Positions 26,758 to 40,634 of a DNA stretch of 64,000 bases are shown piece after piece. The number at the start of each line of letters is the position of its first letter. Position 1 is the stretch's first letter. The position numbers were made by a program, and so were the translations under genes. This stretch comes from Brevundimonas sp. (GTDB lineage: Bacteria; Pseudomonadota; Alphaproteobacteria; Caulobacterales; Caulobacteraceae). The stretch covers positions 1 to 64,000 of the forward strand of contig NZ_JACESB010000010.1 of the NCBI RefSeq assembly GCF_013912005.1. Direction: 5' to 3'. Below the pieces are notes generated by a model. It worked only from the letters and a program-made list of their open reading frames with translations. It was not told the origin of the DNA and ran no database searches.

Positions 26758-28536
26758 TCAGCTCGCCGACGCGAGCGGTTCGCCGCCCGTCCGTTCGGCG
26801 ACGGCGACCTCGGCGCCCGTCGGCAGGCCGCCTTTGCGGGCGAGGGCGGCGAAGGCTCCGTCCCGTGAGATCAGCTCACGGAACGTTCCGCTTTCGGCGA
26901 TGCGCCCCTTGTCCATCACCACGATCAGGTCGGCGTCGATGATGGTCGAAAGCCGGTGGGCGATCAGGAAGGTGGTCCGGCCGGCGGCCGCCGCGTCCAG
27001 CGCCTGCTTGACCTTCATCTCCGTCACCGTGTCGAGGGCGCTCGTCGCCTCGTCAAGGATGAGGATCGGGGCGTTCTTGAGGATGGCCCGGGCGATGGCG
27101 AGCCGCTGGCGTTCGCCGCCGGAGAGCAGACGACCGCCTTCGCCGATGACAAAGGCGTAGCCGCCGGGTTTGGCGACGATGAAGTCGTGGGCCTCGGCGG
27201 CCCGCGCCGCCGCCTCGAGTTCCGCGTCCGTCGCGTCCGGCCGCGCCAGCCTCAGGTTGTCGGCGATCGAGCGGTTGAACAGGCCGGCGTCCTGGAACAC
27301 CACCCCGATCGCCTCCCGCAGCGAGGCGATGGTCACCCGGCGGATGTCCTGGCCGTCGATGAGGATGCGGCCGGTGGCCGGTTCACGCTGGCGCTGAAGC
27401 AGGTTCATCAGGGTCGTCTTGCCCGCCCCGCTCGATCCGACCAGCGCCACCTTCGAGCCGGCGGGCACGCGCAGGTCGATGTCGAACACGCCCATGTGGG
27501 TGTCCATGAACCAGTGGCTGACGCGCTCGAAGACGATCTCACCCCGGACGTCGACGAGGGGAACGGCGTCCGGGGCGTCCGCGAACTCCTGGCGGGTGTC
27601 CATCAGATCGAACAGGCCCTGCAGCGTCGGCGCCTGCACGAAGACGCGGGCGAACGACGCCGAGAGCTGGTCCAGACGGCCGATGAGCAGTCCCGCGAAG
27701 CCGATGAAGCTGACGATCTCCCCGACCGTGACGCGCCCCGCCGCCAGCAGGAGGGCCCCGGTCGCGAACAGGCTGACCATCGCCAGGGTGGAGGCCCCGC
27801 GGGTCATCACCATCAGCACCGCCCACCAGCTGAGCACCGGATACTGGGCCCCCAGCAGGCGGGCGGTCATGCTGCGCAGATCGGCCCCCTCCGTCGGGGC
27901 GCGCATGTACGCCTGGATCACGCCGACGTTGGCGATCACGTCTCCGATGCGGCTGGAGACGGCCTGGTGGTGCTGTTCGACCTGCGCCTGCCCGGCCTCC
28001 GTCTTGCCGACCACCAGCCAGCTGACGGCGACGTAGACGACGGCCAGGGCCACGAGCACCGAAGCGAGGATCGGATCGATCCAGAAGGCCAGCGGCAGGA
28101 GGAGCACCAGGCTGACGAGGGCGGGCTGCTGCTCCCTGAAGAAGGACAGGATCAGGGCGAACAGGGCGTCGCCGCCCGTGAGCATGGCCCGGATGATGCG
28201 GCCGGTGCCCTTTTCGGACACGAAGGGGGCCGGCAGGGTGACGGCCCGGTCGAAGGCCTCGTTCATCGCCGCGAGCCGCCGACGGTGCGACATCCGGTCG
28301 GCGAGAAGCGAGACCAGGGCCGACCCGGCGATGCTCACCATGCCGAGCGCCGCCCACAGGCCGATGAGCCGCCACGGCCCGGCGCCACGCGTCAGGGCGT
28401 CGACCACCCGCCCGAACAGCACCGGCTCCACCACGGCGAGGCCGCCGAGGACGAGATTGCCGACGGCGAGCGCCGTCGCCCGGCGCAGATCGGGGCGCAG
28501 CAGGCGGAGCGCGCGAAGGTAGAGGCGGAGGATCAT
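26758..28536 (-). CDS. NdvA/ChvA-like ABC exporter (beta-glucan exporter family)
   Basis: A 592-aa fused ABC exporter, almost the same length as rhizobial NdvA (about 588). The start at 28536 (MILRLYLRALRLLRPDLR) mirrors the NdvA N-terminus, and the membrane domain shares its distinctive pieces: VEPVLFGRVVDALT, GQAQVEQHHQAVSSRI, AQYPVLSWWAV and VGEIVSFIGFAGLLI. The ATPase part has GSSGAGKTTL, LSGGERQR, ILILDEATS and AHRLS. NdvA moves cyclic beta-1,2-glucan to the periplasm; no glucan synthase gene is nearby, so the cargo here may be another glycan. It is divergent from galE with 133 bases between starts. Confidence 0.86.
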   Translation of the reverse strand: MILRLYLRALRLLRPDLRRATALAVGNLVLGGLAVVEPVLFGRVVDALTRGAGPWRLIGLWAALGMVSIAGSALVSLLADRMSHRRRLAAMNEAFDRAVTLPAPFVSEKGTGRIIRAMLTGGDALFALILSFFREQQPALVSLVLLLPLAFWIDPILASVLVALAVVYVAVSWLVVGKTEAGQAQVEQHHQAVSSRIGDVIANVGVIQAYMRAPTEGADLRSMTARLLGAQYPVLSWWAVLMVMTRGASTLAMVSLFATGALLLAAGRVTVGEIVSFIGFAGLLIGRLDQLSASFARVFVQAPTLQGLFDLMDTRQEFADAPDAVPLVDVRGEIVFERVSHWFMDTHMGVFDIDLRVPAGSKVALVGSSGAGKTTLMNLLQRQREPATGRILIDGQDIRRVTIASLREAIGVVFQDAGLFNRSIADNLRLARPDATDAELEAAARAAEAHDFIVAKPGGYAFVIGEGGRLLSGGERQRLAIARAILKNAPILILDEATSALDTVTEMKVKQALDAAAAGRTTFLIAHRLSTIIDADLIVVMDKGRIAESGTFRELISRDGAFAALARKGGLPTGAEVAVAERTGGEPLASAS

Positions 28537-28669
28537 GCAGGCTCCGGTGTCCCGCCCGCCAACCGTCCGCCGGGCGAATGGTTGCTCCGACGCGCGTCTG
28601 CGTCGGGCCGCCGACACAGGAACCACCGCCGGGGCCGGGGGTTGGCCCAGCCTTCGACGGGAGTAAGGC

Positions 28670-29701
28670 ATGAGCGACGGACGGCGGGTTCTCGTGACAG
28701 GCGGCGCGGGATACATCGGCTCGCACACGGCCAAGGCGCTTGCGCGGGCGGGGCACACGCCCGTCGTCTTCGACGACCTCAGCAACGGCCACCGGGAGGC
28801 GGTCCGCTGGGGACCTCTGGTCGTCGGCGACATCCGCGACCGGGCGGCCGTGGAGGCCTGCCTGCGCGAACACCGCATCGACAGCGTCATCAATTTCGCC
28901 GGTCTGATCGAGGTCGGACGCTCGGTCCACGACCCGGCGGTCTTCTGGGACGTCAACCTCGGCGGGGTCGCCGTCGTGCTCGAGGCGATGCGGGCCTGCG
29001 GCGTCGAGCGGCTGGTGTTCTCGTCGACGGCGGCCGTCTACGGCCAGCCCGACGCGGCGTCGCTGGCGCCTCTGCGGGAGACGCTGCCGACCCAGCCGAT
29101 CAATCCCTACGGCGACAGCAAGCTCGCCGCCGAGCGCCTCATCGCCGCCTCGGCCCGGGCCTACGGCGTCCGCGGCGTGGCCCTTCGCTACTTCAACGCA
29201 TGCGGGGCGGACGCCGAGGGCGAGATCGGCGAGGCGCACGCGCCCGAGAGCCATCTCATTCCGCTGGCGATCGAGGCGGCGCTGGGATTCGGCCCGGCGC
29301 TGACCGTCTTCGGACAGGACTTCCCCACCCCCGACGGCGCCTGCATCCGGGACTACATCCACGTGTCCGATCTGGCGCGGGCGCATGTGCTGGCGCTGGA
29401 CGTCGACCCCGGCCCCGACGGCTTCGTGGCGATGAATCTCGGCACGGGCCGGGGCTTCTCGGTTCTCGAGGTGGTCGAGGCGGTGGCGCGGGCGGTGGGC
29501 CGGCCGACGCCGTTCTCCGTCGGCGCCCGCCGACCGGGGGATCCGGCCTGCCTCGTCGCCGACGCCGGCCGCGCCCGCGAGCGGCTCGACTGGCGGCCGT
29601 CCTTCACCAGTCTCGACGAAATCGTGGCCACGGCCGTGGCGTGGCGGCGCCGTCCGGCGTTCGGCGACCGGCTGCTGGCGACGACGCGGGAGGTTGCGTG
29701 A
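28670..29701 (+). CDS. galE: UDP-glucose 4-epimerase
   Basis: A 343-aa short-chain dehydrogenase-fold enzyme interconverting UDP-glucose and UDP-galactose. N-terminal NAD motif TGGAGYIGSH, FSSTAAVYG, the catalytic NPYGDSK (Y-x3-K), RYFNACGAD and RDYIHVSDLARAH are all GalE hallmarks. It is the first gene of a plus-strand cluster; its stop overlaps the GTG start of the next gene. With the mutase domain downstream it would feed UDP-galactose to UDP-galactofuranose. Confidence 0.95.
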   Translation: MSDGRRVLVTGGAGYIGSHTAKALARAGHTPVVFDDLSNGHREAVRWGPLVVGDIRDRAAVEACLREHRIDSVINFAGLIEVGRSVHDPAVFWDVNLGGVAVVLEAMRACGVERLVFSSTAAVYGQPDAASLAPLRETLPTQPINPYGDSKLAAERLIAASARAYGVRGVALRYFNACGADAEGEIGEAHAPESHLIPLAIEAALGFGPALTVFGQDFPTPDGACIRDYIHVSDLARAHVLALDVDPGPDGFVAMNLGTGRGFSVLEVVEAVARAVGRPTPFSVGARRPGDPACLVADAGRARERLDWRPSFTSLDEIVATAVAWRRRPAFGDRLLATTREVA

Positions 29702-30999
29702 GCGGTCTGGAGCTCTGGGGCGGGCATGAATGCACCGTCAACCGCGTGGGCGACGCCTGGCTCGACCAGACCCGCCTGTCGGGCCACCAGGAGCGGCCGG
29801 GCGATCTCGACCGCTTCGCCCGGCTCGGCCTGAAGGCCCTCCGCTATCCCCTTCTGTGGGAACGCACCGAGGTGGAGCCCGGCCGCTTCGACTGGAGCTG
29901 GGCCGACGAGCGACTCGGGCGGATGCGCGCGCTGGACCTGCGCCCGGTCGCCGGTCTGGTGCACCATGGCTCGGGGCCGGCGTGGACGGACCTGCTGGAC
30001 CCCGGCTTCGCGCCCGGACTGGCGCGATACGCAGCCGCCGCGGCGCGCCGGTATCCATGGGTGGAGGACTGGACGCCGGTGAACGAGCCGCTGACCACCG
30101 CCCGGTTCAGCGCCCTGTACGGCCACTGGCACCCGCACGCCCGGGACGAGGCGTCCTTCTGGCTGGCGCTGCTGAACCAGATCGACGGCGTCCGTCTGGC
30201 GATGCAGGCGATCCGCGAGGTGAACCCGGCGGCGCGGCTGGTGCAGACCGAGGATTTCGGCTGGACCTGGGGCACTGACCCGTGTGCGGCCCAGGTGCGG
30301 CACGACAACGCGCGACGGCTGATGACATGGGATCTTCTGACCGGACGGGTGGTCCCGGAGCATCCTCTGTGGCTGCGGCTGGAGCGGCTGGGCTTCGGAC
30401 GCCGGCTCGACGCGATCGCCGAGGCGCCCTGCCCCCCGGACCTGCTGGGGCTCAATCACTACGTGACCAGCGACCGCTTCCTCGATCACCGCCTCGAGCG
30501 CTATCCGGAGCGCTCGCACGGCGGAAACGGCGAGATCGCCTTCGCCGACGTCGAGGCCGTGCGGGTGCTGGCCGACTATCCCTGCGGCTGGCGGCGCAGC
30601 CTCGAGGCCGTGTGGGGCCGGTACGGCCTGCCGGTCGCCGTCACGGAGTGCCACCTCGGCTGCACCCCGGACCAGCAGCAGCGGTGGCTCTCCGCCTGCT
30701 GGCGCGCCGCCCTCGAGGCGCGGCGGGAAGGGATCGACGTGCGGGCGGTCACCGTCTGGGCGCTGCTCGGAAGCCATGACTGGGACAGCCTCCTGACCCG
30801 CTGGGTCGGCAGCTATGAAGCCGGGGTGTTCGACGTCTCGACGGGGACCCCGGAGGCGACGCCGCTGGCGGCGCTGGTGCGCCGGCTCGCCGCCGGCGAA
30901 ACCCCGCCGGTCGGCGCCGCCGGCTGGTGGGAGCAGGCGGAACGGCTGCTCTACCCCCCGTGCGAGGCTCCGCCGGAAATGTCGGTGGGCCGACATTGA
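29698..30999 (+). CDS. GH1-like (family 1 glycosidase-fold) protein
   Basis: A 433-aa cytoplasmic protein starting at GTG 29698, which overlaps the galE stop in a GTGA. It has a (beta/alpha)8 glycosidase layout: LWERTEVEPGRFDWSWAD, the acid/base motif WTPVNEPLTTARFS, LLGLNHYVTSDRFLD, and the nucleophile candidate in AVTECHLGC (TEC instead of the usual TENG). Relatives occur next to, or fused with, sugar-nucleotide enzymes in glycan clusters rather than in catabolic loci. No signal peptide. Its job, editing or transferring sugars in the galactofuranose pathway, is inferred from position only. Confidence 0.82.
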   Translation: MSGLELWGGHECTVNRVGDAWLDQTRLSGHQERPGDLDRFARLGLKALRYPLLWERTEVEPGRFDWSWADERLGRMRALDLRPVAGLVHHGSGPAWTDLLDPGFAPGLARYAAAAARRYPWVEDWTPVNEPLTTARFSALYGHWHPHARDEASFWLALLNQIDGVRLAMQAIREVNPAARLVQTEDFGWTWGTDPCAAQVRHDNARRLMTWDLLTGRVVPEHPLWLRLERLGFGRRLDAIAEAPCPPDLLGLNHYVTSDRFLDHRLERYPERSHGGNGEIAFADVEAVRVLADYPCGWRRSLEAVWGRYGLPVAVTECHLGCTPDQQQRWLSACWRAALEARREGIDVRAVTVWALLGSHDWDSLLTRWVGSYEAGVFDVSTGTPEATPLAALVRRLAAGETPPVGAAGWWEQAERLLYPPCEAPPEMSVGRH

Positions 31000-31090
31000 C
31001 GTCTGCAAAAGACAAGCTTTTTCAATAGCGTGCAACCAATGTGCGTGTCAGCGGTTGGGGGAGTCCATTCCCTCCCGCGAAAGAGCCCCC

Positions 31091-33460
31091 ATGGACCGCA
31101 CATCGAGCCCGACGCAGAGCGCAGTCGTTATCGAACTGGGCAAGCCGCACGAGCGGGCCGATCCGATTGTCTGCCTTTCGCACCTGCGTTGGGACTTCGT
31201 GTTCCAGCGGCCGCAGCACCTGATGTCCCGCTTCGCCGCCAACCGGACCGTGCTGGTGTTCGAGGAGCCGCTGCCGGCGGAACCCGGGGCCGCCATGGGG
31301 ATCGATCTCCGGACCTGCGCCGAAAGCGGCGTGATCGTCGCCACCCCGCGGCTGCCGGACGGCCTCGAGGGCGCCTGCCGCAACGCCGTGCTGCGCCAGC
31401 TCCTCGACGAGGCCCTCGCCGCCCACCGGATCGAGCGGCCGGTCCTGTGGTACTACACGCCGATGATGCTGCCGCTGGCGCGGCACATCGAAGCTGCGGC
31501 GGTCGTGTACGACTGCATGGACGAGCTCGCGAACTTCAGGTTCGCCCCGCCGGAGCTGACCACCCTGGAAGGTGAGCTGTTCGCCACGGCCGACGTGGTG
31601 TTCACCGGCGGCCACAGCCTGTTCGAGGCCAAGCAGCACCTCCACGGCAACATCCACCCGTTCCCCTCCAGCGTGGATCGCGCCCACTTCGCCACGGCGC
31701 GCGAGCTCAACCGCGCCGGCGGCGACCGGCGGCCCCGGTTCGGCTTCTACGGGGTCATCGACGAGCGGATGGATCTCGAGCTGATCGCCGGAGTCGCCGA
31801 CGCCCGCCCCGACTGGGATCTGGAGATGGTCGGTCCCGTGGTGAAGATCGCCCCGGAGAGCCTCCCCCGGCGGGCGAACATCGCCTGGACGGGCCAGAAG
31901 ACCTACGACGACCTGCCCGACTGCCTCGCGGACTGGGACGTGGCCCTGATGCCGTTCGCGATCAACGAGTCGACCCGCTTCATCAGCCCCACCAAGACGC
32001 CGGAATACCTCTCCGCCGGCCGGCCGGTGGTGTCGACGCCTGTCCGGGACGTCGTGCGCCACTACGGCGACCTGGAGGCGGTGCGGATCGCCGCCGACGT
32101 CGAGAGTTTCGTCGAGAGCTGCGAGACGGCGCTGGCTCTCGCTCGCGGCGAAGAGGCGGGCTGGCTTGAGGACGTCGATGCCGTGCTCGCCAGCCTGTCG
32201 TGGGACCAGACCCAGCTTCGCATGTCGGCGCTGATCGACTCCGCGGCCGAGCGGCGGTCGTTCGCCATCCAGCGGCCGGCGGTCGCCGCTCCCTCGGTCT
32301 GGCCGGCGTTGCGCCGCTCCCACTACGACGCCCTCGTGGTCGGCGCCGGCTTCGCCGGTTCCGTGATGGCCGAGCGACTCGCGTCCCAGGGCCAGAAGGT
32401 GCTGCTCATCGACCGTCGGCCGCACATCGCCGGCAACGCGTTCGACCGGCTCGACGCCGCCGGCGTGCTGATCCACCAGTACGGGCCGCACATCTTCCAC
32501 ACGAACTCGGCCGAGATCTTCGACTATCTGTCCCGCTTCACCGAGTGGCGGCCGTACGAGCACCGGGTGCTGGCGCAGGTTGGCGAGCAGCTCGTGCCGA
32601 TGCCGATCAACCGCACCACGCTGAACGCCCTCTACGAGCTGGACCTGCGGTCGGACGAGCAGGCCGAGGCCTTCCTCGCCTCCCGCGCCGAGCCGGTCGA
32701 GCGCATCCGCACCTCGGAGGACGTGGTCGTCAACGCCATTGGCCGCGAGCTCTACGAGACCTTCTTCCGCGGCTACACCCGCAAGCAGTGGGGCCTGGAT
32801 CCGTCGGAGCTGGACAGGTCGGTGACGGCGCGGGTGCCCACGCGGACCAACACCGACGACCGCTACTTCACGGACGCCTTCCAGGCCATGCCGCTGCACG
32901 GCTACACCCGCATGTTCGAGAACATGCTCGATCACGACGGGATCGATATCGAGACCGGGGTGGAGTACCGCGACGTCGTGGACGAGGTCCTGCACGACCG
33001 CCTGATCTTCACCGGCCCGATCGACGAGTTCTTCGACCACCGCTACGGCGAGCTGCCCTACCGCTCGCTGAGGTTCCGCCACGAGACGCTCGATCAGGAG
33101 TGGTTCCAGCCGGTCGCGACCGTGAACTACCCGGCCGAGACCACCCCCTACACCCGGGTCACCGAGTACAAGCACCTGACGGGCCAGACCCACGACCGCA
33201 CGAGCGTCACCTACGAGTATCCGGCGGCGGAAGGGGATCCCTACTATCCGATCCCCCGGCCCGAGAACCAGGCGCTCTTCAAGAAGTACGAGGCTCTCGC
33301 GGCCACCCGGCCCGAGGTGGCGTTCGTGGGCCGGCTGGCGACCTACCGCTACTACAACATGGACCAGGTCACCGGGCAGGCGCTGGCCGCCTGGCGCCGT
33401 CTCCCCCCGCTCGGCCAGTCGGCCGCGGCGTCCGGAGAGGCGGCGATCGCGGGAGGCTGA
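31091..33460 (+). CDS. Glycosyltransferase-UDP-galactopyranose mutase fusion
   Basis: A 789-aa two-domain protein. Residues about 25-385 form a GT-B glycosyltransferase (SHLRWDFVFQRPQHLMSRF, DCMDELANF, PTKTPEYLSAGRPVVST as donor-site region). Residues about 411-775 are a full UDP-galactopyranose mutase: FAD motif VGAGFAGSVMAERLA (G418, G420, G423), YGPHIFHTNS, FFRGYTRKQWGLD and RLATYRYYNMDQ. The mutase makes UDP-Galf from UDP-Gal, the attached transferase would then use it. Usually these are separate proteins; the join by a short Ala/Pro linker leaves no internal start required. Start at 31091 is the first ATG that gives the family N-terminus. A terminator follows at once. Confidence 0.9.
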   Translation: MDRTSSPTQSAVVIELGKPHERADPIVCLSHLRWDFVFQRPQHLMSRFAANRTVLVFEEPLPAEPGAAMGIDLRTCAESGVIVATPRLPDGLEGACRNAVLRQLLDEALAAHRIERPVLWYYTPMMLPLARHIEAAAVVYDCMDELANFRFAPPELTTLEGELFATADVVFTGGHSLFEAKQHLHGNIHPFPSSVDRAHFATARELNRAGGDRRPRFGFYGVIDERMDLELIAGVADARPDWDLEMVGPVVKIAPESLPRRANIAWTGQKTYDDLPDCLADWDVALMPFAINESTRFISPTKTPEYLSAGRPVVSTPVRDVVRHYGDLEAVRIAADVESFVESCETALALARGEEAGWLEDVDAVLASLSWDQTQLRMSALIDSAAERRSFAIQRPAVAAPSVWPALRRSHYDALVVGAGFAGSVMAERLASQGQKVLLIDRRPHIAGNAFDRLDAAGVLIHQYGPHIFHTNSAEIFDYLSRFTEWRPYEHRVLAQVGEQLVPMPINRTTLNALYELDLRSDEQAEAFLASRAEPVERIRTSEDVVVNAIGRELYETFFRGYTRKQWGLDPSELDRSVTARVPTRTNTDDRYFTDAFQAMPLHGYTRMFENMLDHDGIDIETGVEYRDVVDEVLHDRLIFTGPIDEFFDHRYGELPYRSLRFRHETLDQEWFQPVATVNYPAETTPYTRVTEYKHLTGQTHDRTSVTYEYPAAEGDPYYPIPRPENQALFKKYEALAATRPEVAFVGRLATYRYYNMDQVTGQALAAWRRLPPLGQSAAASGEAAIAGG

Positions 33461-33461
33461 G

Positions 33462-33494
33462 CGGGGCCGGGGCCGCCGCGCGGCCCCGTTTGTT
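33462..33494 (+). terminator. Intrinsic terminator after the GT-mutase gene
   Basis: Perfect 8-bp stem CGGGGCCG (33462-33469) and CGGCCCCG (33481-33488) followed by TTTGTT, beginning two bases after the stop codon. It closes the galE-GH1-GT/mutase transcript and marks the left edge of the AT-richer block. Confidence 0.85.
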
Positions 33495-33555
33495 CCCGGG
33501 AAGCGGCGGCCTGCCGGTCCGACGCGGCGTCGCCCGCGTCGGGTCACCGGGGGCA

Positions 33556-33780
33556 TATGAGGCGGGTTCCTACTTCTTCGAGTGGGAACGGGAATGGCGG
33601 GTGCTGGGAGACTTCAGATTCAATCCGGAGAACGTCGCGTTCCTGATTATCCCTGAAGAACTCCACGAAGCGGCACGCTCGTTCTTTGAGTCGGTGCGCG
33701 ATGACAACACCGGCCCGGTTTACGAATGCCCCTACATCGATCCCTATTGGACGGAGTTACCAGCGGACCTTCCCTTCTAA
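33556..33780 (+). pseudogene. C-terminal remnant of a larger protein
   Basis: About 75 codons read as a well-formed protein end (EWEREWRVLGDF, FLIIPEELHEAARSFFESV, CPYIDPYWTEL, stop at 33778-33780), but no start codon or upstream coding fits; the frame before it is GC-rich antisense-like sequence. The EWEREWRV box and the strand-helix after it recall the C-termini of small hypothetical proteins found in defence or mobile islands; I cannot name the family. Base composition matches the following island genes, so this looks like the broken left edge of the acquired block. The rest of 33461-33806 holds only the terminator and a short spacer. Confidence 0.6.
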
Positions 33781-33806
33781 CGGGAGTCAGCTCCCGCCAT
33801 CACCAT

Positions 33807-34370
33807 CTAGTCCTCGACCTCGTTAGCCCCGGAAGGGATCGGGTCATCGGCGAACATCACATAGTGGATGTGTTGCACCGCTCGGCTAAACCGAGCGGCT
33901 CGGACCGCGACCGCTTCAAGTTGTCCGGGCCAGTAGTTGCTGATCCGGTGGGTGATCCGGCCTCCATCGATCACGATCTCGTCGAACGTCGTCGGCCCAC
34001 GCGGGAGAACTTTCATGTCAGAGTGAGCCATCCGATTCCGGATGGCTCGGCTCGCCTCGTAGCGGTCCAGAATGGCTGTTCCCAGCCGTTGAAAGCGCGA
34101 CAGCGGTCCGTCGGTGGCTAGCACCTTCCGGAGATAGCTGATCCGGGCTGCGCTGCTGAAGGGCGGTGTCTCCCGAAGATCACGATACTCTGGGACCATT
34201 GAGCATCGGATCGCCACGTCCGTTAGCTTCTGCTCAACGTGGCTGTAGCTCCAGAGGATCGAAGAACGGAGGATGAGGACACGGGCGAGATCGGCGTCCT
34301 GAACCCACGGATTGATGACGGCTCGCCATTCGTAGGGCACCAACTGACTCGGCTTCAATCTACGCCCCAT
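33807..34370 (-). CDS. HEPN-like protein of the tRNA-Ser island
   Basis: A 187-aa soluble, mostly helical protein; the start is ATG 34370, with a GTG one codon earlier as alternative. The stretch IRNRMAHSD (R111-x4-H116) is the R-x4-6-H motif of HEPN domains, many of which are RNases in toxin-antitoxin and abortive-infection systems, and it sits after two predicted helices as expected. The rest (LRSSILWSYSHVEQKLTDVA, then the tail with MFADDPIPSG) I do not recognise. It is the last gene of a three-gene minus-strand operon, 30 bases after the small coiled-coil gene. A nuclease role is inference from one motif. Confidence 0.7.
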   Translation of the reverse strand: MGRRLKPSQLVPYEWRAVINPWVQDADLARVLILRSSILWSYSHVEQKLTDVAIRCSMVPEYRDLRETPPFSSAARISYLRKVLATDGPLSRFQRLGTAILDRYEASRAIRNRMAHSDMKVLPRGPTTFDEIVIDGGRITHRISNYWPGQLEAVAVRAARFSRAVQHIHYVMFADDPIPSGANEVED

Positions 34371-34400
34371 CACAACCCCAACTGCTCGCGCGCGACGGGG

Positions 34401-34622
34401 TTAAAGCCCGCCGTTCTCGATATCGGCGATGAGCTTCACATATTCCGCCTCGCTGGCCTTGAGACTCGCGAGGTGCTGCGGGGTGTAGTCTCGGAACGCC
34501 TCGCCGGGCCTCTGCGAACCGATCTTCGCGTTAGGCTGGGACCAGAACCAGATGCTTTGACGGATCGAGGCAAGCTCATCGCGAAGTTGCTGAAGTTCGT
34601 TGTCCAAATCGTCCCCCTTCAT
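34401..34622 (-). CDS. Small coiled-coil protein of the tRNA-Ser island
   Basis: A 73-aa acidic protein with a heptad-like N-terminal helix (DLDNELQQLRDELASIRQSI) and a second helix at the end (LASLKASEAEYVKLIADIE). No family recognised. Its ATG overlaps the stop of the membrane-protein gene in an ATGA, so it is made in step with it. Size and position between a membrane sensor-like and a HEPN-like protein would fit an adaptor or antitoxin, but nothing in the sequence proves it. Confidence 0.68.
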   Translation of the reverse strand: MKGDDLDNELQQLRDELASIRQSIWFWSQPNAKIGSQRPGEAFRDYTPQHLASLKASEAEYVKLIADIENGGL

Positions 34623-35416
34623 CTGACTGGATCGGGTGGCAGACCGAATGCGCGCTCATCCCAATCCCCTGCCGCCCGGACGAGAGCTTTTCGCCCTTCG
34701 CTGAGATTGTGGAAGAGAGCGTAGCGTTCATACAACCGCTTCGCACCCTCCCCTTCGCGCGTCAGCACGTTCAGTGCGATAAGGAATAACTCACTGTCTG
34801 ACAGCTGTGATCGGAGCAGGCGCACATACTGATACGACAAGTCGTCTCGAACGATGATGCGGTCATCACCGGTCTTCCCATCGAAGTGCCTCTCGGCATA
34901 ACGGACTATGTGATAGATGAAGCGGAAGAGGTTCGAGTGGTTCTTTACGTGGGCCATTACGCGCCCATACGCCTCCATCACCGTGAGCTGAGGGTCGGAG
35001 CGGGGCGCACTTTCGATGAACCCGGCTATCCTATCGACCCCGAACTGACCCTCGTGGTGATGACTTCCGTAAGTGTAAGCGACCTTCTCCAGTAGGTCAT
35101 ACCGACGTTCCAAGAGGTCTAAAAAGGAGGGCTCCGCACGAAGTCGGGCGGCCTCCGCTCGCTCCCGCCGTAGCAACTGCGTCTCTTCCGACTGAGCTTG
35201 GTAGGTCCGGTAGGCGAAGTAGGCGGCAAGCGCGGCCATCATCGCGCCAATGAAACCAAAACTGTCGCCGAACTGGCCAGTGACCGCGAAGTTTGGGGCG
35301 CCGCCATTCCGCATAGGCAGAAGTCCCGTCACCACGACGAAATAGAACCAGAGCGCGGCGGCCCCGATTGCAGCCCGGACGATCTTCGCGAACTTCTTGT
35401 TGTCGGTGCCCGTCAA
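34619..35416 (-). CDS. Two-helix membrane protein, putative phage abortive-infection family (putAbiC-like)
   Basis: A 265-aa protein starting at TTG 35416 behind a strong GGGAGGAG site. Two membrane helices (residues about 14-34 and 51-72) are followed by a charged coil (EETQLLRRERAEAARLRAE) and a cytoplasmic helical domain with FLDLLERRYDLLEKV, LFRFIYHIVRYAERHF and YVRLLRSQLSDSELFLIALN. This order, with the GDSFGFIGA motif at the second helix, matches my knowledge of the putative phage abortive-infection family putAbiC. The match is from memory of the pattern, not a search. It heads the island operon and lies 135 bases from tRNA-Ser. Confidence 0.75.
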   Translation of the reverse strand: MTGTDNKKFAKIVRAAIGAAALWFYFVVVTGLLPMRNGGAPNFAVTGQFGDSFGFIGAMMAALAAYFAYRTYQAQSEETQLLRRERAEAARLRAEPSFLDLLERRYDLLEKVAYTYGSHHHEGQFGVDRIAGFIESAPRSDPQLTVMEAYGRVMAHVKNHSNLFRFIYHIVRYAERHFDGKTGDDRIIVRDDLSYQYVRLLRSQLSDSELFLIALNVLTREGEGAKRLYERYALFHNLSEGRKALVRAAGDWDERAFGLPPDPVR

Positions 35417-35476
35417 AGCCGCTCCTCCCGAGCGCCATCCTGACGAGATTCGACGGCCCGGAAACGGCGATCCTGC

Positions 35477-35514
35477 GCGTCACACAAAGCGTCACACAGG
35501 CTCACTCTGTGACG
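35477..35514. repeat. Short direct and inverted repeats near the tRNA-Ser 3' end
   Basis: GCGTCACACA occurs twice, at 35477-35486 and 35489-35498, a 12-base period; an inverted copy of its core, TGTGACG, follows at 35508-35514. The cluster lies between the island operon and the tRNA, where arm-type recombinase sites or the tail of a lost integrase gene would be expected. Function unproven. Confidence 0.5.
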
Positions 35515-35550
35515 AGCCAACTTGCTGTTTTCAAGGCGTTTATGAAGAAA

Positions 35551-35642
35551 TGGCGGAGACGGAGGGATTCGAACCCTCGGTACCCCTTACAGGGTACGAC
35601 GATTTAGCAAACCGTTGCCTTCAGCCACTCGGCCACGTCTCC
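35551..35642 (-). tRNA. tRNA-Ser (anticodon GCU)
   Basis: The minus strand begins GGAGACGTGGCCGAGTGG, has the anticodon loop TTGCTAA (GCU, reading AGC/AGU), a long class II variable arm (GTACCCTGT...GGGTAC), the T-loop GGTTCGAATCC and ends CGTCTCC-G-CCA with encoded CCA. The 92-nt length is right for serine. Its 3' end faces the AT-richer block, the usual side for island integration. A reading frame running through it gives the well-known false EGFEPS peptide. Confidence 0.97.
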
Positions 35643-35763
35643 GGCAGGCGGCGTGCTTACCGGAGCGCGCGGGCGGGCGCAACGGGTCTGGCGACGCCGC
35701 CGCCCGTTAACGCGACAGTGAGGCGGACGCGGCAAGCTCGGGCCAAACCTTCCGCCCGGACGC

Positions 35764-37290
35764 ATGACCCACGCCGCCAGCCCTCTGACCGTTGACGACG
35801 CTGCGCCGGCGCGGCCGCCCGCGCGGACGGCCGGCGACGGCGCCGCGCGACGGGGACCGTTCCGGCCCGAGGTCTGGCTCAACGCCCGTCAGCGGCACGC
35901 CTCCCGCCTCGCCGCCCACTATTTCCGCGCCTTCGACGTGCTGGCGGTGCTCGGTCTCACCCTGGTCTGCGCCTGGGCCGCCGCCTCCGGTCCGCTCGTC
36001 CGCGCGCAGGTCGCGGACGTGGCGCCCTATGCGGTCGGGGCCGCGACGATCCTCGGCCTGATGCGCGCCACCGGGCGCTACCGCTTCGCCCGCGGCGAAC
36101 GACAGGGCCCGCGTCTGCTCGCGGTTTTCGCCATCGTCGCCGCCGGCGCGGCGGCCGCCTTCGCGACCGGTCTCCTCGTGGACGGCGAAGGCGCGTCGAC
36201 GCGCGCGCTCGCCCTGTGGGCCGTGTTGACGCTCGGCCTCCTCGGGACCATGCACCTGGGCTGGAGCCGCCTCGTCGACCGCTGGCGGACTTCGGGCGCC
36301 CTCACCCCCAACATCGTCCTTGTCGGCGCGACCCGTCACGCCGAGAGTCTGATCCGCGAAGCCCTCAAGCGCCGCGACCTGAACGTGCTGGGAATCTTCG
36401 ACGACCGGCTGGCCCGGGCCCCGCGGGCCGTGGCCGGAGTGCCGGTGCTGGGCGCCGCCGACGACCTGCTCGCCCACCGCATGACGCCGTATGTCGATCG
36501 CGTGGTTCTGGCCATCGATCCGCGGGCGGAGGCGCGGGTGCGGGAGCTGACCGCCCGCCTCGGGACGCTGCCGAACGAGGTCACCCTGCTGGTCGAACCG
36601 GACGGCCCGGCCGAGACCGCCTCCGCCCTCGACCGTCTGGCCGCCGCCCCGCTCGCCGACGTCAGCGGGCCGGCCGATCCCGATCGCCGGGCGTTCAACA
36701 AGCGCCTGCAGGATCTGATCCTCGGCCTCCTCGCCCTCGTCCTGCTCGCCCCGGTCATGGCCCTGATCGCCCTGGCCATCCGCCTCGACAGTCCCGGCCC
36801 GGTGCTGTTCCGCCAGCGGCGGCACGGCTTCAACCAGGAAGAGATCGTCGTCTGGAAGTTCCGCTCCATGCGCCACGAGGCGGCCGACGCGACCGCCAGC
36901 CGCCAGGTGACCCACGACGACGACCGGGTCACCCGCATCGGGCGCTTCATCCGCAAGACCAGCCTCGACGAGCTGCCGCAACTGATCAACGTGCTGCGCG
37001 GCGAGATGTCCCTGGTCGGCCCGCGGCCGCACGCGATCGGCATGAAGACCGGCCACGTGGAGTCCGCCCGACTGGTCGGCGAGTACGCCCACCGCCACCG
37101 GATCAAGCCCGGCATGACCGGATGGGCGGCGGTGAACGGCTCGCGCGGGCCCCTGCACACGGCCCAGGACGTCCGCCGCCGCGTCCGCCTCGACATCGAG
37201 TACGTCGAGCGCCAGAGCCTGTGGATGGATCTGTGGATCATGGCGATCACGGTTCCGGTCCTGCTCGGCGACCGCGCGGCCGTCCGGTGA
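35764..37290 (+). CDS. hfsE: Undecaprenyl-phosphate sugar phosphotransferase (HfsE/PssY type)
   Basis: A 508-aa initiating enzyme that puts the first sugar phosphate on undecaprenyl phosphate in the inner membrane. Several N-terminal membrane helices, a central CoA-binding-like domain (NIVLVGATRHAESLIREALKRR region) and the C-terminal catalytic domain are present, with VLFRQRRHGFNQEEIVVWKFRSM, RKTSLDELPQLINVLRGEMS, VGPRPHA and the final IKPGMTGWAAVNGSRG. The position at the head of an HfsF-GT-GT run facing hfsB-hfsA-hfsD copies the Caulobacter holdfast locus, hence the symbol; PssY/PssZ paralogues are alternatives. Confidence 0.86.
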   Translation: MTHAASPLTVDDAAPARPPARTAGDGAARRGPFRPEVWLNARQRHASRLAAHYFRAFDVLAVLGLTLVCAWAAASGPLVRAQVADVAPYAVGAATILGLMRATGRYRFARGERQGPRLLAVFAIVAAGAAAAFATGLLVDGEGASTRALALWAVLTLGLLGTMHLGWSRLVDRWRTSGALTPNIVLVGATRHAESLIREALKRRDLNVLGIFDDRLARAPRAVAGVPVLGAADDLLAHRMTPYVDRVVLAIDPRAEARVRELTARLGTLPNEVTLLVEPDGPAETASALDRLAAAPLADVSGPADPDRRAFNKRLQDLILGLLALVLLAPVMALIALAIRLDSPGPVLFRQRRHGFNQEEIVVWKFRSMRHEAADATASRQVTHDDDRVTRIGRFIRKTSLDELPQLINVLRGEMSLVGPRPHAIGMKTGHVESARLVGEYAHRHRIKPGMTGWAAVNGSRGPLHTAQDVRRRVRLDIEYVERQSLWMDLWIMAITVPVLLGDRAAVR

Positions 37291-37303
37291 CCCGGAGCGG
37301 CTG

Positions 37304-38755
37304 ATGTTCTGGAAGGGCGTCTGGGGCTACCTGCCCGCCAACATCGTCCAGGGCGTGGTCGGCTTCCTGACCATCGTCCTGTTCACCCGCCTGCTCGACG
37401 CCGAGGCGTTCGGCCGCTACGCCCTCGCCTTCTCGGTGGTGACCCTCGCCCATGTGGCGGTGTTCAGCTGGCTCGAGGCGGCCATGGCCCGCTTCTGGGC
37501 CGCGGAGACCGCGGGCGCCGGGCTGGCGAGCCATTTCGCCAGCCTCTACCGCATCGCCTTCGTCCTCTCCGCCGGCTTCCTCGTCCTCGTGGGGGCGGTT
37601 CTGTGGCTGTCGCCGGTCGAGCCGCTGTTCCGCCTCGCCCTCGCCGCCGGCCTCGCCGGCGTGCCGGCCCGCTGCCTGGTCAAGCTCGCCCAGGAACGCT
37701 ACCGCGCCGCGGGCGAGGTCGGTCGGGCGGCGGGGCTGGACATCGCCACCACCATCGGCGGTCTCGTCATCGGCGTCGGCTTCGCCCTCGCCGGCGCCGG
37801 CGGGGCCGCGCCCCTGCTGGGCCTCGGTCTCGCGCCCCTGCTCGCCCTGCCCTTCGTGCTCCCCGCCGAACTGCGCGAGGCGCGCGGCGGCCGGCTGGAG
37901 CCCGCGCGGCTGCGCGGCTACGCCGTCTACGGCTATCCGATCGCCGCCTCCCTGGCGCTCACCGTGGTGCTCGCCTCCACCGACCGCTTCCTGCTCGCGG
38001 CCTTCCTCGACGAGGCGGCGGTCGGCGCCTATCACGCCGGCTATTCGATCGCGAACCGGACGCTGGACGTGCTGTTCCTGTGGCTCGGGGCGGCCGGGCA
38101 GCCGGCTTTGGTCATGGCGCTGGAGCGCGGCGGCGCCGCCCGGCTGCAGGCCGCGGCCCGGGAGCAGCTGTCCACCTTCCTGCTGATCGGCCTGCCGGCG
38201 GCCGCGGGCGTGGCCCTGGTGGCCCGGCCGCTGGCGGAGGTGCTGATCGGCGAGGAGCTGCGCACGGCGGCGGCGGCCATCACCCCGTGGATCGCCCTCT
38301 CCGCCCTGCTCTACGGCCTCACCGCCTACTACTTCGGCCAGGCCTTCACCCTCGGCCGGCGCACCGGTCGGCTGCTGGCGGCCATGAGCCTGCCCGCGCT
38401 CGTCAACGTGGCCCTGAACCTCGTCCTCGTGCCGCGCTTCGGCGTCATGGGGGCGGCGTGGGCGACGGCGGCGAGTTTCGCCCTCGGGCTCGCCGCCACC
38501 CTGACGCTCGGCCGCGCCGTGCTGCCCCTGCCCGTGGCCTGGGACAGCCTGCTGCGCTGCGCCGCCGCCACGGCCCTGATGGCCCTCGTCGTCCGCGCCC
38601 TGCCCCCGCTCGGCGGCGCGGCCGAACTGGTCCTCGACGCCGGCGTCGGCGCCCTCGTCTACGCCGCCGCGGCCCTGACGCTGAACGCCGCCGGCGTGCG
38701 CGACGTGGCGGCCCGTCTCGTCCGGCGGTTCCGGGCCCGGAAGGCCGCCGCATGA
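37304..38755 (+). CDS. hfsF: Polysaccharide flippase, Wzx/MOP superfamily (HfsF-like)
   Basis: A 483-aa integral membrane protein with about 12-14 hydrophobic helices of the MOP exporter type. N-terminus FWKGVWGYLPANIVQGVVGF and LFTRLLDAEAFGRYALAF is typical of Wzx proteins, and it ends with a short basic cytoplasmic tail. It would flip the lipid-linked repeat unit to the periplasm. It starts 13 bases after hfsE with a GGAG-type site, and its stop overlaps the next start (ATGA). Assigned HfsF from family plus order. Confidence 0.85.
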   Translation: MFWKGVWGYLPANIVQGVVGFLTIVLFTRLLDAEAFGRYALAFSVVTLAHVAVFSWLEAAMARFWAAETAGAGLASHFASLYRIAFVLSAGFLVLVGAVLWLSPVEPLFRLALAAGLAGVPARCLVKLAQERYRAAGEVGRAAGLDIATTIGGLVIGVGFALAGAGGAAPLLGLGLAPLLALPFVLPAELREARGGRLEPARLRGYAVYGYPIAASLALTVVLASTDRFLLAAFLDEAAVGAYHAGYSIANRTLDVLFLWLGAAGQPALVMALERGGAARLQAAAREQLSTFLLIGLPAAAGVALVARPLAEVLIGEELRTAAAAITPWIALSALLYGLTAYYFGQAFTLGRRTGRLLAAMSLPALVNVALNLVLVPRFGVMGAAWATAASFALGLAATLTLGRAVLPLPVAWDSLLRCAAATALMALVVRALPPLGGAAELVLDAGVGALVYAAAALTLNAAGVRDVAARLVRRFRARKAAA

Positions 38756-39684
38756 GCGCCGCCGTCGTCGAGAACGCCGCCTGGGCCGGAGCCGCCCCCT
38801 CGCTGTCGGTGCTGACGCCCTTCCTGCGCGACGACCCGTCCGACCTGCTGGAGCGGCTGGAGACGGAGGCGCCGGCGCTGGGGGACGGCGTGGAGGTGGT
38901 CCTGCTGGACGACGGCACCGCCGACGCCGAACTCACCGCGCGGCTGACGGCTCTCATCCGCCGGATGACCCTGCCGGCGCGCCTGATCACCCTCGCCGCC
39001 AACGAGGGCCGGGCGCCGGGCCGCAACCGCCTCGCCGCCGCCGCCCGGGGCGAGGCGCTGCTGTTCCTCGACAGCGACATGCGGCCCGACAGTCCCCACT
39101 TCCTGCAGGACTGGGCGGCGCTGGTGCGGCGCGAGCGGCCGGCGGTCGCCTTCGGCGGCTTCTCCCTGCTGCAGGCGCCGGACGCGCCTCGCTTCGCCGT
39201 CCACCGCGCCCTGGCGGCGAAGTCGGAGTGCGTTCCCTCGCCGGAGCGGGCGAAGCAGCCGGCCAAATACGTCTACACCTCAAACCTCCTCGTCCGCCGC
39301 GACGTGTTCGAGGCCGAGGCCTTCGATCCCGGCTTCACCGGCTGGGGCTGGGAGGACGTGGAGTGGGCCATCCGCGTCGCCCGCCGTTTCCCGGTGGTCC
39401 ACGTCGACAACCCGGCGACGCACATGGGCCTCGACACCGTCCCGGCCCTCGCCGCCAAGTACGAACAGTCGGCGCCCAACTTCGGCCGGATGGCCGCGCG
39501 CCACCCGGAGATCGTCGCCGCCTACCCCAGCTATCGCGCCGCGCGCCTGCTGCGCCGGCTGCCGGCCCTGCGGCCGCTCCGTAGCCTGCTGAAGCGGGCC
39601 GCGACCGCGGAGTGGCTGCCGACCGCCGCCCGGGCCTTCTCGCTGCGCCTGTACCGGGCCGCCCTCTATGCGGAGGCGGTGTGA
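38752..39684 (+). CDS. Family 2 glycosyltransferase (HfsG position)
   Basis: A 310-aa GT-A glycosyltransferase: LSVLTPFLRDD at the N-terminus, EVVLLDDGT, NEGRAPGRNRLAAAARGEALLFLDSDM (motif order with the DSD metal site), and GWGWEDVEWAIR as acceptor/catalytic base region. It adds a sugar to the lipid-linked unit at the cytoplasmic face. It lies where hfsG is found in Caulobacter, and its length agrees, but sequence identity to HfsG was not checked. Coupled to hfsF by a 4-base overlap and to the next gene by a 1-base overlap (TGATG). Confidence 0.85.
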   Translation: MSAAVVENAAWAGAAPSLSVLTPFLRDDPSDLLERLETEAPALGDGVEVVLLDDGTADAELTARLTALIRRMTLPARLITLAANEGRAPGRNRLAAAARGEALLFLDSDMRPDSPHFLQDWAALVRRERPAVAFGGFSLLQAPDAPRFAVHRALAAKSECVPSPERAKQPAKYVYTSNLLVRRDVFEAEAFDPGFTGWGWEDVEWAIRVARRFPVVHVDNPATHMGLDTVPALAAKYEQSAPNFGRMAARHPEIVAAYPSYRAARLLRRLPALRPLRSLLKRAATAEWLPTAARAFSLRLYRAALYAEAV

Positions 39685-40634
39685 TGGGCGACGTCGCCGT
39701 CCTCGTGCCCACCCTGCGGCGGCCGGACAGCCTCGCGCGCGCCCTCCGCTCCCTGTTCGCCCAGCAGGGGGTGGACGACCGGATCGCGGCGATCGTGGTG
39801 GTGGACAACGATCCGGCCGGCTCGGCCGCGTCGATGGTGGAGTCGCTGCGCTCCGCGGCGCCCTGGCCCCTGGTGTACCGGCATGCGCCGACCCCCGGGG
39901 TGGCCACCGCCCGCAACGCCGGCCTGGCCGCGACCGACGCCCCCCTGATCGCCTTTCTGGACGACGACGAGGCCGCCTCGCGGGGCTGGCTCGCCGCCCT
40001 GCTCGACGCACAGGCGGCCACGGGCGCCGATGTGGTGTTCGGGCCCATCACCGGCCGCGCGCCGGAGGCGGCGCCGTGGCTCCAGCCCTATCTGGAGCGC
40101 TTCTTCGGCCGGGCGGGCCCCGCGGAGACCGGTCTGATCGACCGGCCCTACGGCTGCGGCAACTCCCTGATGCTGCGGCGCACGGCCCTGCCCGGCGCCG
40201 CCCCCTTCAGCACCGCCGCCGACGACATGGGCGGCGAGGACGACATCCTGTTCGCCGGACTGCAGCGCCGGGGCGGCCGGTTCGGCTGGGCGGCCGACGC
40301 CCGGGTGGAGGAGTTCGCGCCGGCGCACCGCGCCACCCTCCGCTACACCCTCGCCCGCGCCTTCGCCTACGGCCAGGGCCCGAGCCAGACGGCCGCCGCG
40401 GCGCGCGACTGGCCGGGCGTGCTGCGCTGGATGGTGATCGGCGCGGGCCAGACCGCCATCTGGGGTTCAGTCGCCGCCGGCCTGTCTGTCCTGGGCCATC
40501 CCCGCCGGGCCGAGGCGCTGGACCGCGCCGCCCGCGGTCTCGGAAAGCTTTTCTGGATGAAGGGTCTGGAGCCGCGTTTCTACGGCGCCCACGAAGTGGC
40601 CCGGCTGGATCGTCAGCGATCGCTCAGCCGGTGA
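39684..40634 (+). CDS. Family 2 glycosyltransferase
   Basis: A 316-aa GT-A enzyme. VAVLVPTLRRPDSLARAL, VVVDNDPAGSA, GVATARNAGLAAT, FLDDDEAA (metal site) and GGEDDILFAGLQRRG carry the family signature. It uses a start one base before the previous stop ends, so translation is coupled. It takes the place where Caulobacter has hfsH and hfsC, and is no relative of either. Its end overlaps the end of the convergent hfsB-like gene by 11 bases. Sugar donor unknown. Confidence 0.85.
   Translation: MGDVAVLVPTLRRPDSLARALRSLFAQQGVDDRIAAIVVVDNDPAGSAASMVESLRSAAPWPLVYRHAPTPGVATARNAGLAATDAPLIAFLDDDEAASRGWLAALLDAQAATGADVVFGPITGRAPEAAPWLQPYLERFFGRAGPAETGLIDRPYGCGNSLMLRRTALPGAAPFSTAADDMGGEDDILFAGLQRRGGRFGWAADARVEEFAPAHRATLRYTLARAFAYGQGPSQTAAAARDWPGVLRWMVIGAGQTAIWGSVAAGLSVLGHPRRAEALDRAARGLGKLFWMKGLEPRFYGAHEVARLDRQRSLSR

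Follow-up and report, generated by a model that had tools for sequence, protein, structure and literature searches.

A putative relic of a small capsid-encoding element with abortive-infection genes at a Brevundimonas tRNA-Ser(GCU) gene

How did a short AT-rich patch with genes of abortive-infection type come to lie against a tRNA gene in Brevundimonas sp., and do these genes act together? The window, that is the whole stretch of DNA analysed, covers positions 1-64000 of contig NZ_JACESB010000010.1 (GCF_013912005.1, a 2.89-Mb genome in 42 contigs). The patch (33.5-35.55 kb) abuts the 3' end of the tRNA-Ser(GCU) gene (35551-35642, minus strand) and carries the genes for a putAbiC membrane protein (P0001), a 73 amino acid protein (P0002), a HEPN-like protein (P0003) and a truncated protein (P0004). 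We consider it rather probable that the patch is the tRNA-proximal cargo end of a small capsid-encoding element in tRNA-Ser(GCU), integrase-less and still carrying abortive-infection genes as independent modules.

The patch and the tRNA-Ser(GCU) hotspot

The guanine-plus-cytosine (GC) content of positions 33550-35550 is 0.592, against 0.719 for the whole window, 0.713 for 28000-33460 and 0.751 for 35643-40000. Among 2-kb stretches taken at steps of 100 bases, eight have a GC content of 0.62 or less; their starts range from 33201 to 33901 and every one overlaps the patch. The preliminary description of this DNA, which had called the region AT-richer than its surroundings and had counted 32 GC in the 60 bases of 34681-34740, was right on both points, and also in placing a truncated gene at the left edge, which is P0004 (33550-33780, plus strand). 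The other three frames (265, 73 and 187/188 amino acids) are all on the minus strand and head away from the 3' end of the tRNA. They look coding, as judged from the bias in GC content at codon positions three and two (0.70/0.42, 0.76/0.38 and 0.72/0.46, respectively).

No second copy of the tRNA end was found in the window, nor at the junction (33461-33549) between the patch and the host glycan cluster that ends at 33460, and no integrase or phage gene was recognised among the frames of the patch, either from the frames themselves or with Pfam, NCBIfam, PADLOC and PHROGs. For these two reasons we call the patch a relic, the distal part of which, with the integrase, seems gone. The host gene SCP2 is at 25921-25622, on the far side of both the relic and the glycan cluster as seen from the tRNA; the idea that the whole cluster is part of one insert was rejected, since no second tRNA end was found. 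A 14-base inverted repeat (33468-33481 and 35353-35366) is in our reading a GC-rich terminator stem that happens to recur.

Complete elements occupy this tRNA in related genomes. DNA of the tRNA-Ser region was matched by the genus search in all 61 genomes, the own one included, and thirty loci were used, 29 of which (28 besides the window) were readable past the tRNA over a stretch of up to 1.5 kb. The 28 other sites have the host genes SCP2 (eight sites) or AmtB (four), an integrase (two), AbiV (one) or a lasso-peptide-like gene (one) in that stretch, and twelve were unclassified. Six sites, picked as looking occupied, were extended. In four of them the 3' end of the tRNA is duplicated and flanks elements of 13.8 kb (L065), 7.0 kb (L066), 5.0 kb (L067) and 6.8 kb (L068), for which the tRNA gene serves as attachment site; in L069 and L070 a second copy was not found in the 20 kb read. 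Defence-like cargo is present in three of the four complete elements, namely a HEPN_AbiV protein in L065, a phosphoesterase-STAND protein in L066 (Metallophos and nSTAND domains, matching PADLOC PDC-S60 with an E value of 2e-71) and a TIR protein in L067. Two cargo proteins of L068 (1004-1549 and 4738-5493; GC 43% and 39%) have no Pfam or PADLOC match. The earlier proposal of a mobile island of defence genes at a tRNA is supported.

Two further observations concern the same site. L066 (219-7204) and L067 (196-5203) each encode an integrase, a serine-resolvase-like protein and one large defence-like protein. A lasso-peptide-like cluster stands beside the tRNA-Ser site in L066 (8159-10788) and in L029; its genes are, we assume, those for a small binding protein, a short precursor-like open reading frame (ORF) and an asparagine-synthase-like protein.

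The element in L065 (456-14289) is the one to which the patch can be linked. It encodes integrase, terminase, major capsid, head morphogenesis and head-tail adaptor proteins, and its HEPN_AbiV gene (PF18728) adjoins the tRNA. No tail gene was recognised among the ten proteins scanned, and there is no ORF of more than 599 amino acids. The gene content of L065 would fit a satellite-like element. In the window two copies of the motif GTGTGAC, 12 bases apart (35479-35497, minus strand), lie 53 and 65 bases past the 3' end of the tRNA; counting its complement, the motif has three occurrences in the 64 kb, and two of them form this pair. Such a pair within the first 300 bases is found in the window and in L065 only (two of 29 sites), at identical offsets, and is absent from 27 of the 28 other sites. 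A second GTGTGAC pair is located at the integrase end of L065, and the pair in the window may be a remnant of the lost element, namely arm-type sites for its integrase.

A second connection runs through P0003. Its closest relatives are on the IMG/VR contigs L052 (67% identical) and L061 (63%), at distances of 90 and 597 bases, respectively, from a tRNA-Glu. These contigs also encode major capsid proteins akin to that of L065 (identity 72% for L052 and 82% for L061). From the shared register of the motif and from the kinship of P0003 to genes on contigs with L065-like capsids, we infer that the patch is the integrase-less relic of the cargo end of an L065-like element.

Several points weigh against this descent. 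With integrase, phage genes and a second tRNA end all missing, the proposed origin is drawn from the single GTGTGAC pair, the adjoining tRNA and the kinship of the genes. The corresponding slot of L065 holds AbiV and has none of P0001-P0003. Neither a second tRNA end nor an integrase is present in the parts of L052 (10,946 of 17,331 bases) and L061 (11,100 of 17,262 bases) that were read, and the stretches scanned for four of the eight P0003 relatives (L009, L049, L050 and L064) contain no tRNA. The defence role of P0001 and of the P0003 family is itself a prediction by analogy.

The genes of the patch

P0003 (33807-34373, minus strand) has 187 or 188 amino acids, with a GTG start or an ATG start at 34370. 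By motif alignment the proposed RNase active site is RNRMAH (codons at 34023-34040, minus strand), which corresponds to residues 112-117 counted from the GTG, and to R111 and H116 for its arginine and histidine if counted from the ATG. The R-x4-H pattern is found in nine of nine family members (the window and eight others, including L061 and L064). In an alignment of P0003 with six relatives, 16-66% identical to it, eleven columns are invariant, R112 and H117 among them, and the residue following the arginine is polar (N, D, H or T) in all seven. The available part of a survey of HEPN proteins describes a typically polar residue at this position, a motif placed in helix 3, within its C-terminal part, and an acidic Ex3[KR] motif in helix 2 of many, not all, families (PMC3710099). 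An AlphaFold2 model of P0003 built from four sequences (predicted local distance difference test, pLDDT, 78.4; predicted template modelling score, pTM, 0.71) has helices at 27-58, 74-86, 92-117 and 151-174; the motif closes helix 3, and a predicted beta hairpin separates this helix from the fourth. As modelled, the family agrees with HEPN proteins in its Rx4-6H motif with a polar residue and in four helices with the motif late in the third.

Other results speak against a HEPN assignment. The Ex3[KR] motif is absent: the acid conserved in column 47 of all seven aligned members lies in helix 1 of the model, and none of the seven has a K or R four residues on. P0003 has no HEPN profile match in Pfam, NCBIfam, PADLOC or PHROGs, which a HEPN family outside these libraries would also miss; seven members of the family had no Pfam match, the profile of the family (A1), like a further profile (A3), matched no PDB sequence, and the fold comparison of the P0003 model, which told little either way, gave no match to the listed solved HEPN folds. 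Compared with AbiV of L065 (one sequence), the family profile gave an hhalign probability of 0.1, that is no detectable similarity. What stands of the original HEPN call is the motif, here invariant, together with a four-helix model; the expected profile match was not obtained. As neither profile nor fold gave a HEPN match, the RNase call rests on the motif, the order and topology of the helices and the context, by which P0003 is a probable RNase of HEPN-like type.

No match to P0003 was found in plasmids and phages, and its matches in genomes, own genome included, numbered two of 199 in the family, seven of 299 in the order and, with a profile, two of 385 in the class. One of the seven (G365, L051) was dropped as a weak partial match (E value 9.4e-4) inside a frame of 808 amino acids. 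Of the contigs with relatives, L010, L052 and L060 are one, and L047 and L059, being equal in length, were taken as one. In L047 the relative is 109 bases from a tRNA-Gly, the second end of which was not found, and in L048 it belongs to a 7.1-kb element that has an integrase and a duplicated tRNA-Arg end. In L050 (3626-4841) the P0003 relative lies in a patch of 41-42% GC, possibly a separate island, beside a gene matching MUG113, which we take to be GIY-YIG-like.

P0001 (34619-35416, minus strand) is a 265 amino acid membrane protein with a C-terminal putAbiC domain. Its start codon is TTG, preceded by GGGAGGAG. The family had been named from the translation, and the profile search suggested at that time confirmed it (PF16872, E value 1.2e-12, 48.6 bits, curated cut-off 22 bits). 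The PADLOC AbiC model gave a weak match (E value 0.0087) and the AbiP model none. The two membrane helices described earlier have weak support, from one clear hydrophobicity peak near residue 15 (19-residue mean 2.07), a second peak near residue 49 (1.34) and a low-confidence structure model with two long N-terminal helices. No homologues of P0001 were found in genome_contigs, viral_contigs or the INPHARED phages, the contig scans reaching close relatives only, and the search of plasmids gave one weak match. P0001 was matched in three of 199 genomes of the family, own genome included, and putAbiC in four of 289 genomes of the class, three of them above the cut-off, and in none of 14 control genomes. 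The match below the cut-off (G703) and three partial N-terminal matches on plasmids (H10-H12) were left out. Neither P0001 nor P0003 was found in the other genomes sampled from the same genus, and their scattered occurrence in the family, at no fixed position, bears out the view that this is an island and not a fixed locus.

P0002 (34401-34622, minus strand; GC at the three codon positions 0.61/0.38/0.76), a candidate coiled coil by the preliminary description, had no meaningful family match in the four libraries and no credible relative, either in viral_contigs or by tblastn over the P0003-family and putAbiC loci. Three weak matches were dropped, two because of internal stop codons and one because its 27 residues lie within another gene, as were weak matches in L007 (E value 0.006) and L009 (E value 0.10) obtained with composition correction off. 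With the correction on, a 13-residue chance match in L007 was seen (E value 0.25).

P0004, at the left edge of the relic, is probably the C-terminal part of an AbiGi-like protein. The fragment itself had no family match and no match in viral_contigs, and is 56% identical over 64 amino acids to a protein of genome G101 that matches AbiGi (PF10899, E value 5.1e-6, 27.1 bits, cut-off 22.4), by which kinship we class it as a probable AbiGi relative. In G101 two ORFs separate this protein from a TIR gene. P0004 is cut on its N-terminal side, where it adjoins the glycan cluster; of the latter, positions 30815-33460 form one frame of 881 amino acids which, from its translation, seems to be a glycosyltransferase joined to a UDP-galactopyranose mutase-like protein.

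One system or separate modules

The preliminary description had read P0001, P0002 and P0003 as a single system of membrane sensor, adaptor and RNase, encoded by a coupled operon, and had named conservation of the three genes together as its test. The genes do form a run on the same strand. The first junction is tight, the start of P0002 overlapping the stop of P0001 (ATGA), and P0003 follows 27 bases past the P0002 stop, so that the coupling stands for the first two genes and less so for the last. On conservation the single system fails among the loci sampled. Thirteen putAbiC loci were read, window included (L008 and L071 are the same prophage, counted once), and co-occurrence was sought by tblastn with E values up to 1: P0003 or P0002 is present at none of the twelve other putAbiC loci, and P0001 or P0002 at none of the eight other P0003-family loci, bar one chance match of 13 residues. 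The exact trio is unique among the loci read.

A looser pairing of putAbiC with HEPN-type genes does occur, in at least two of the twelve loci (L062 and L082). For plasmids and phages the neighbours were taken from annotation, with incomplete gene tables in the case of the plasmids, and at four loci from ORF reading; as most were judged without a profile scan, this count is a lower bound. In L062 (5066-7273) a DUF4145 protein precedes putAbiC in a 2.2-kb island of 37% GC, without integrase, located between the end of a tRNA-Gln and an imperfect 16/18 copy of it. This protein matches the PADLOC PD-T7-4 model (E value 4.1e-64), and DUF4145 is listed among the families of the HEPN clan in the survey cited, as far as available (PMC3710099). 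On a Cupriavidus plasmid (L082) a gene whose product is annotated as HEPN stands 1.1 kb from putAbiC. Next door on this plasmid are SbcC-like, DUF4194 and DUF3375 genes, which look to us like Wadjet. A 'HEPN-TM' system encoded by phage-inducible chromosomal islands (PICIs) is also named in the available parts of two papers (PMC11087260, PMC12948488). The pair at tRNA-Gln keeps a joint reading alive.

Elsewhere putAbiC has other company. It is found in a prophage (L008/L071), in an NgoMIV restriction island (L063), beside a weakly matching methylase and a GHKL-type ATPase (L007), on a Vibrio inovirus (L089:7321-8169) and on a Vibrio plasmid among DUF3265 genes (L087:4872-5726), an array that may be integron-cassette-like. 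From these settings putAbiC seems able to work alone. The cassette-like setting and the lack of a credible relative of P0002 are, like the missing co-occurrence, at odds with a three-part system, which we judge unlikely. As the trio is not conserved, two stacked abortive-infection modules would be the better fit.

We return to the reading of a relic with independent modules. A small integrative capsid-encoding element, prophage or phage satellite, would have entered tRNA-Ser(GCU) by a tyrosine integrase; integrase and distal part would later have been lost, and the cargo would have remained, that is an AbiC/AbiP-like membrane protein with its coupled 73 amino acid partner, a HEPN-like RNase and an AbiGi-like stump. 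P0001 would be held in the inner membrane and act from there upon infection. P0003 would be an RNase that works as a dimer and needs no metal; triggered by infection, it would cleave RNA with its Arg/His pair, so that growth stops before phage release. P0001-P0002 and P0003 would be two independent modules sharing one cargo slot. By analogy with AbiP and Tha, abortive infection is the most likely mode of action.

A decayed remnant without selection on its genes would agree with the truncation of the neighbouring AbiGi-like gene and with the loss of the integrase, but the three intact frames with coding bias and the complete active-site motif of P0003 make this quite improbable. Least probable of all is that P0002 neutralises P0003 as an antitoxin, with P0001 unrelated: a short gene does stand directly upstream of the HEPN-like gene, and an XRE-type regulator lies between the tRNA-Glu and the P0003 relative in L061, but P0002 is coupled to P0001 rather than to P0003 and has no homologue at the eight other P0003-family loci.

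Comparison with known systems

That satellites and prophages carry defence genes is already well known, as far as described in the available text of PMC9122126. Within the searches made, the P0003 family, the element family in Caulobacterales and the relic appear to be new: no Pfam, NCBIfam, PADLOC or PDB-sequence match names the P0003 family, no title on such elements was among the matches listed in searches for Caulobacter satellites and Brevundimonas tRNA-Ser prophages, and neither 'putAbiC' nor 'PF16872' was found by name in the literature searched. The analysis adds a probable RNase family to which nothing corresponds in the copies of Pfam and PADLOC that were searched, and it gives the named family putAbiC a testable context. 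A single tRNA-Ser gene in the genus collects small elements with differing defence-like cargo and is a place to look for more; the relic suggests how defence genes may stay behind when their carrier decays. A broader proposal is put forward tentatively and with some doubt: that Caulobacterales hold undescribed satellite-like tRNA elements, capsid-encoding and tail-less, the slot of which swaps HEPN-type modules (L065 holding AbiV, L052 and L061 a new HEPN family, and the relic in the window putAbiC, P0002 and a HEPN protein), that the P0003-type HEPN family is new to the libraries searched, and that putAbiC is recurrently paired with HEPN RNases.

P0001 can be likened to the membrane-anchored abortive-infection proteins AbiP and AbiC of lactococci and PdpSau of S. 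aureus, as they appear in the part of PMC10127798 available; a title in its reference list describes AbiP as anchored in the membrane and binding nucleic acids. Of six putAbiC relatives scanned five match the PADLOC AbiP model and three the AbiC model, in keeping with the predicted abortive-infection role, the protein of L007 matching AbiC and that of L062 neither. P0001 differs from these relatives in its weak match to AbiC and in having none to AbiP.

P0003 resembles Tha, a HEPN RNase of prophage origin that is set off by phage tail proteins, in the pattern R-N-x3-H (RNSIMH in Tha, RNRMAH in P0003). Tha has 301 amino acids, with the HEPN part C-terminal, against 187 or 188 in P0003, and the two are likened by the description of Tha in the available text (PMC11087260). 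AbiV of L065 is HEPN-type cargo in the same tRNA-proximal slot, of a family with no detectable similarity to that of P0003.

As for the element, L065 is like the capsid-forming PICIs, the mean size of which is 14 kb, in its 13.8 kb, its integrase and capsid genes and the absence of a recognised tail gene. The main hosts given for these in the available part of PMC10803314 are Enterobacteriaceae, Pasteurella, Morganellaceae and several Firmicutes, whereas L065, a putative satellite, comes from Caulobacterales. The defence hotspots described for P2-like phages and P4-like satellites (Rousset 2022, PMC9122126, in the portion available) share with the present site the principle of a constant cargo slot, in small integrating elements related to phages, whose defence genes vary. 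They belong to other hosts, and the Brevundimonas site differs in that elements with different integrases share one tRNA and in that the copy in the window would have lost its element.

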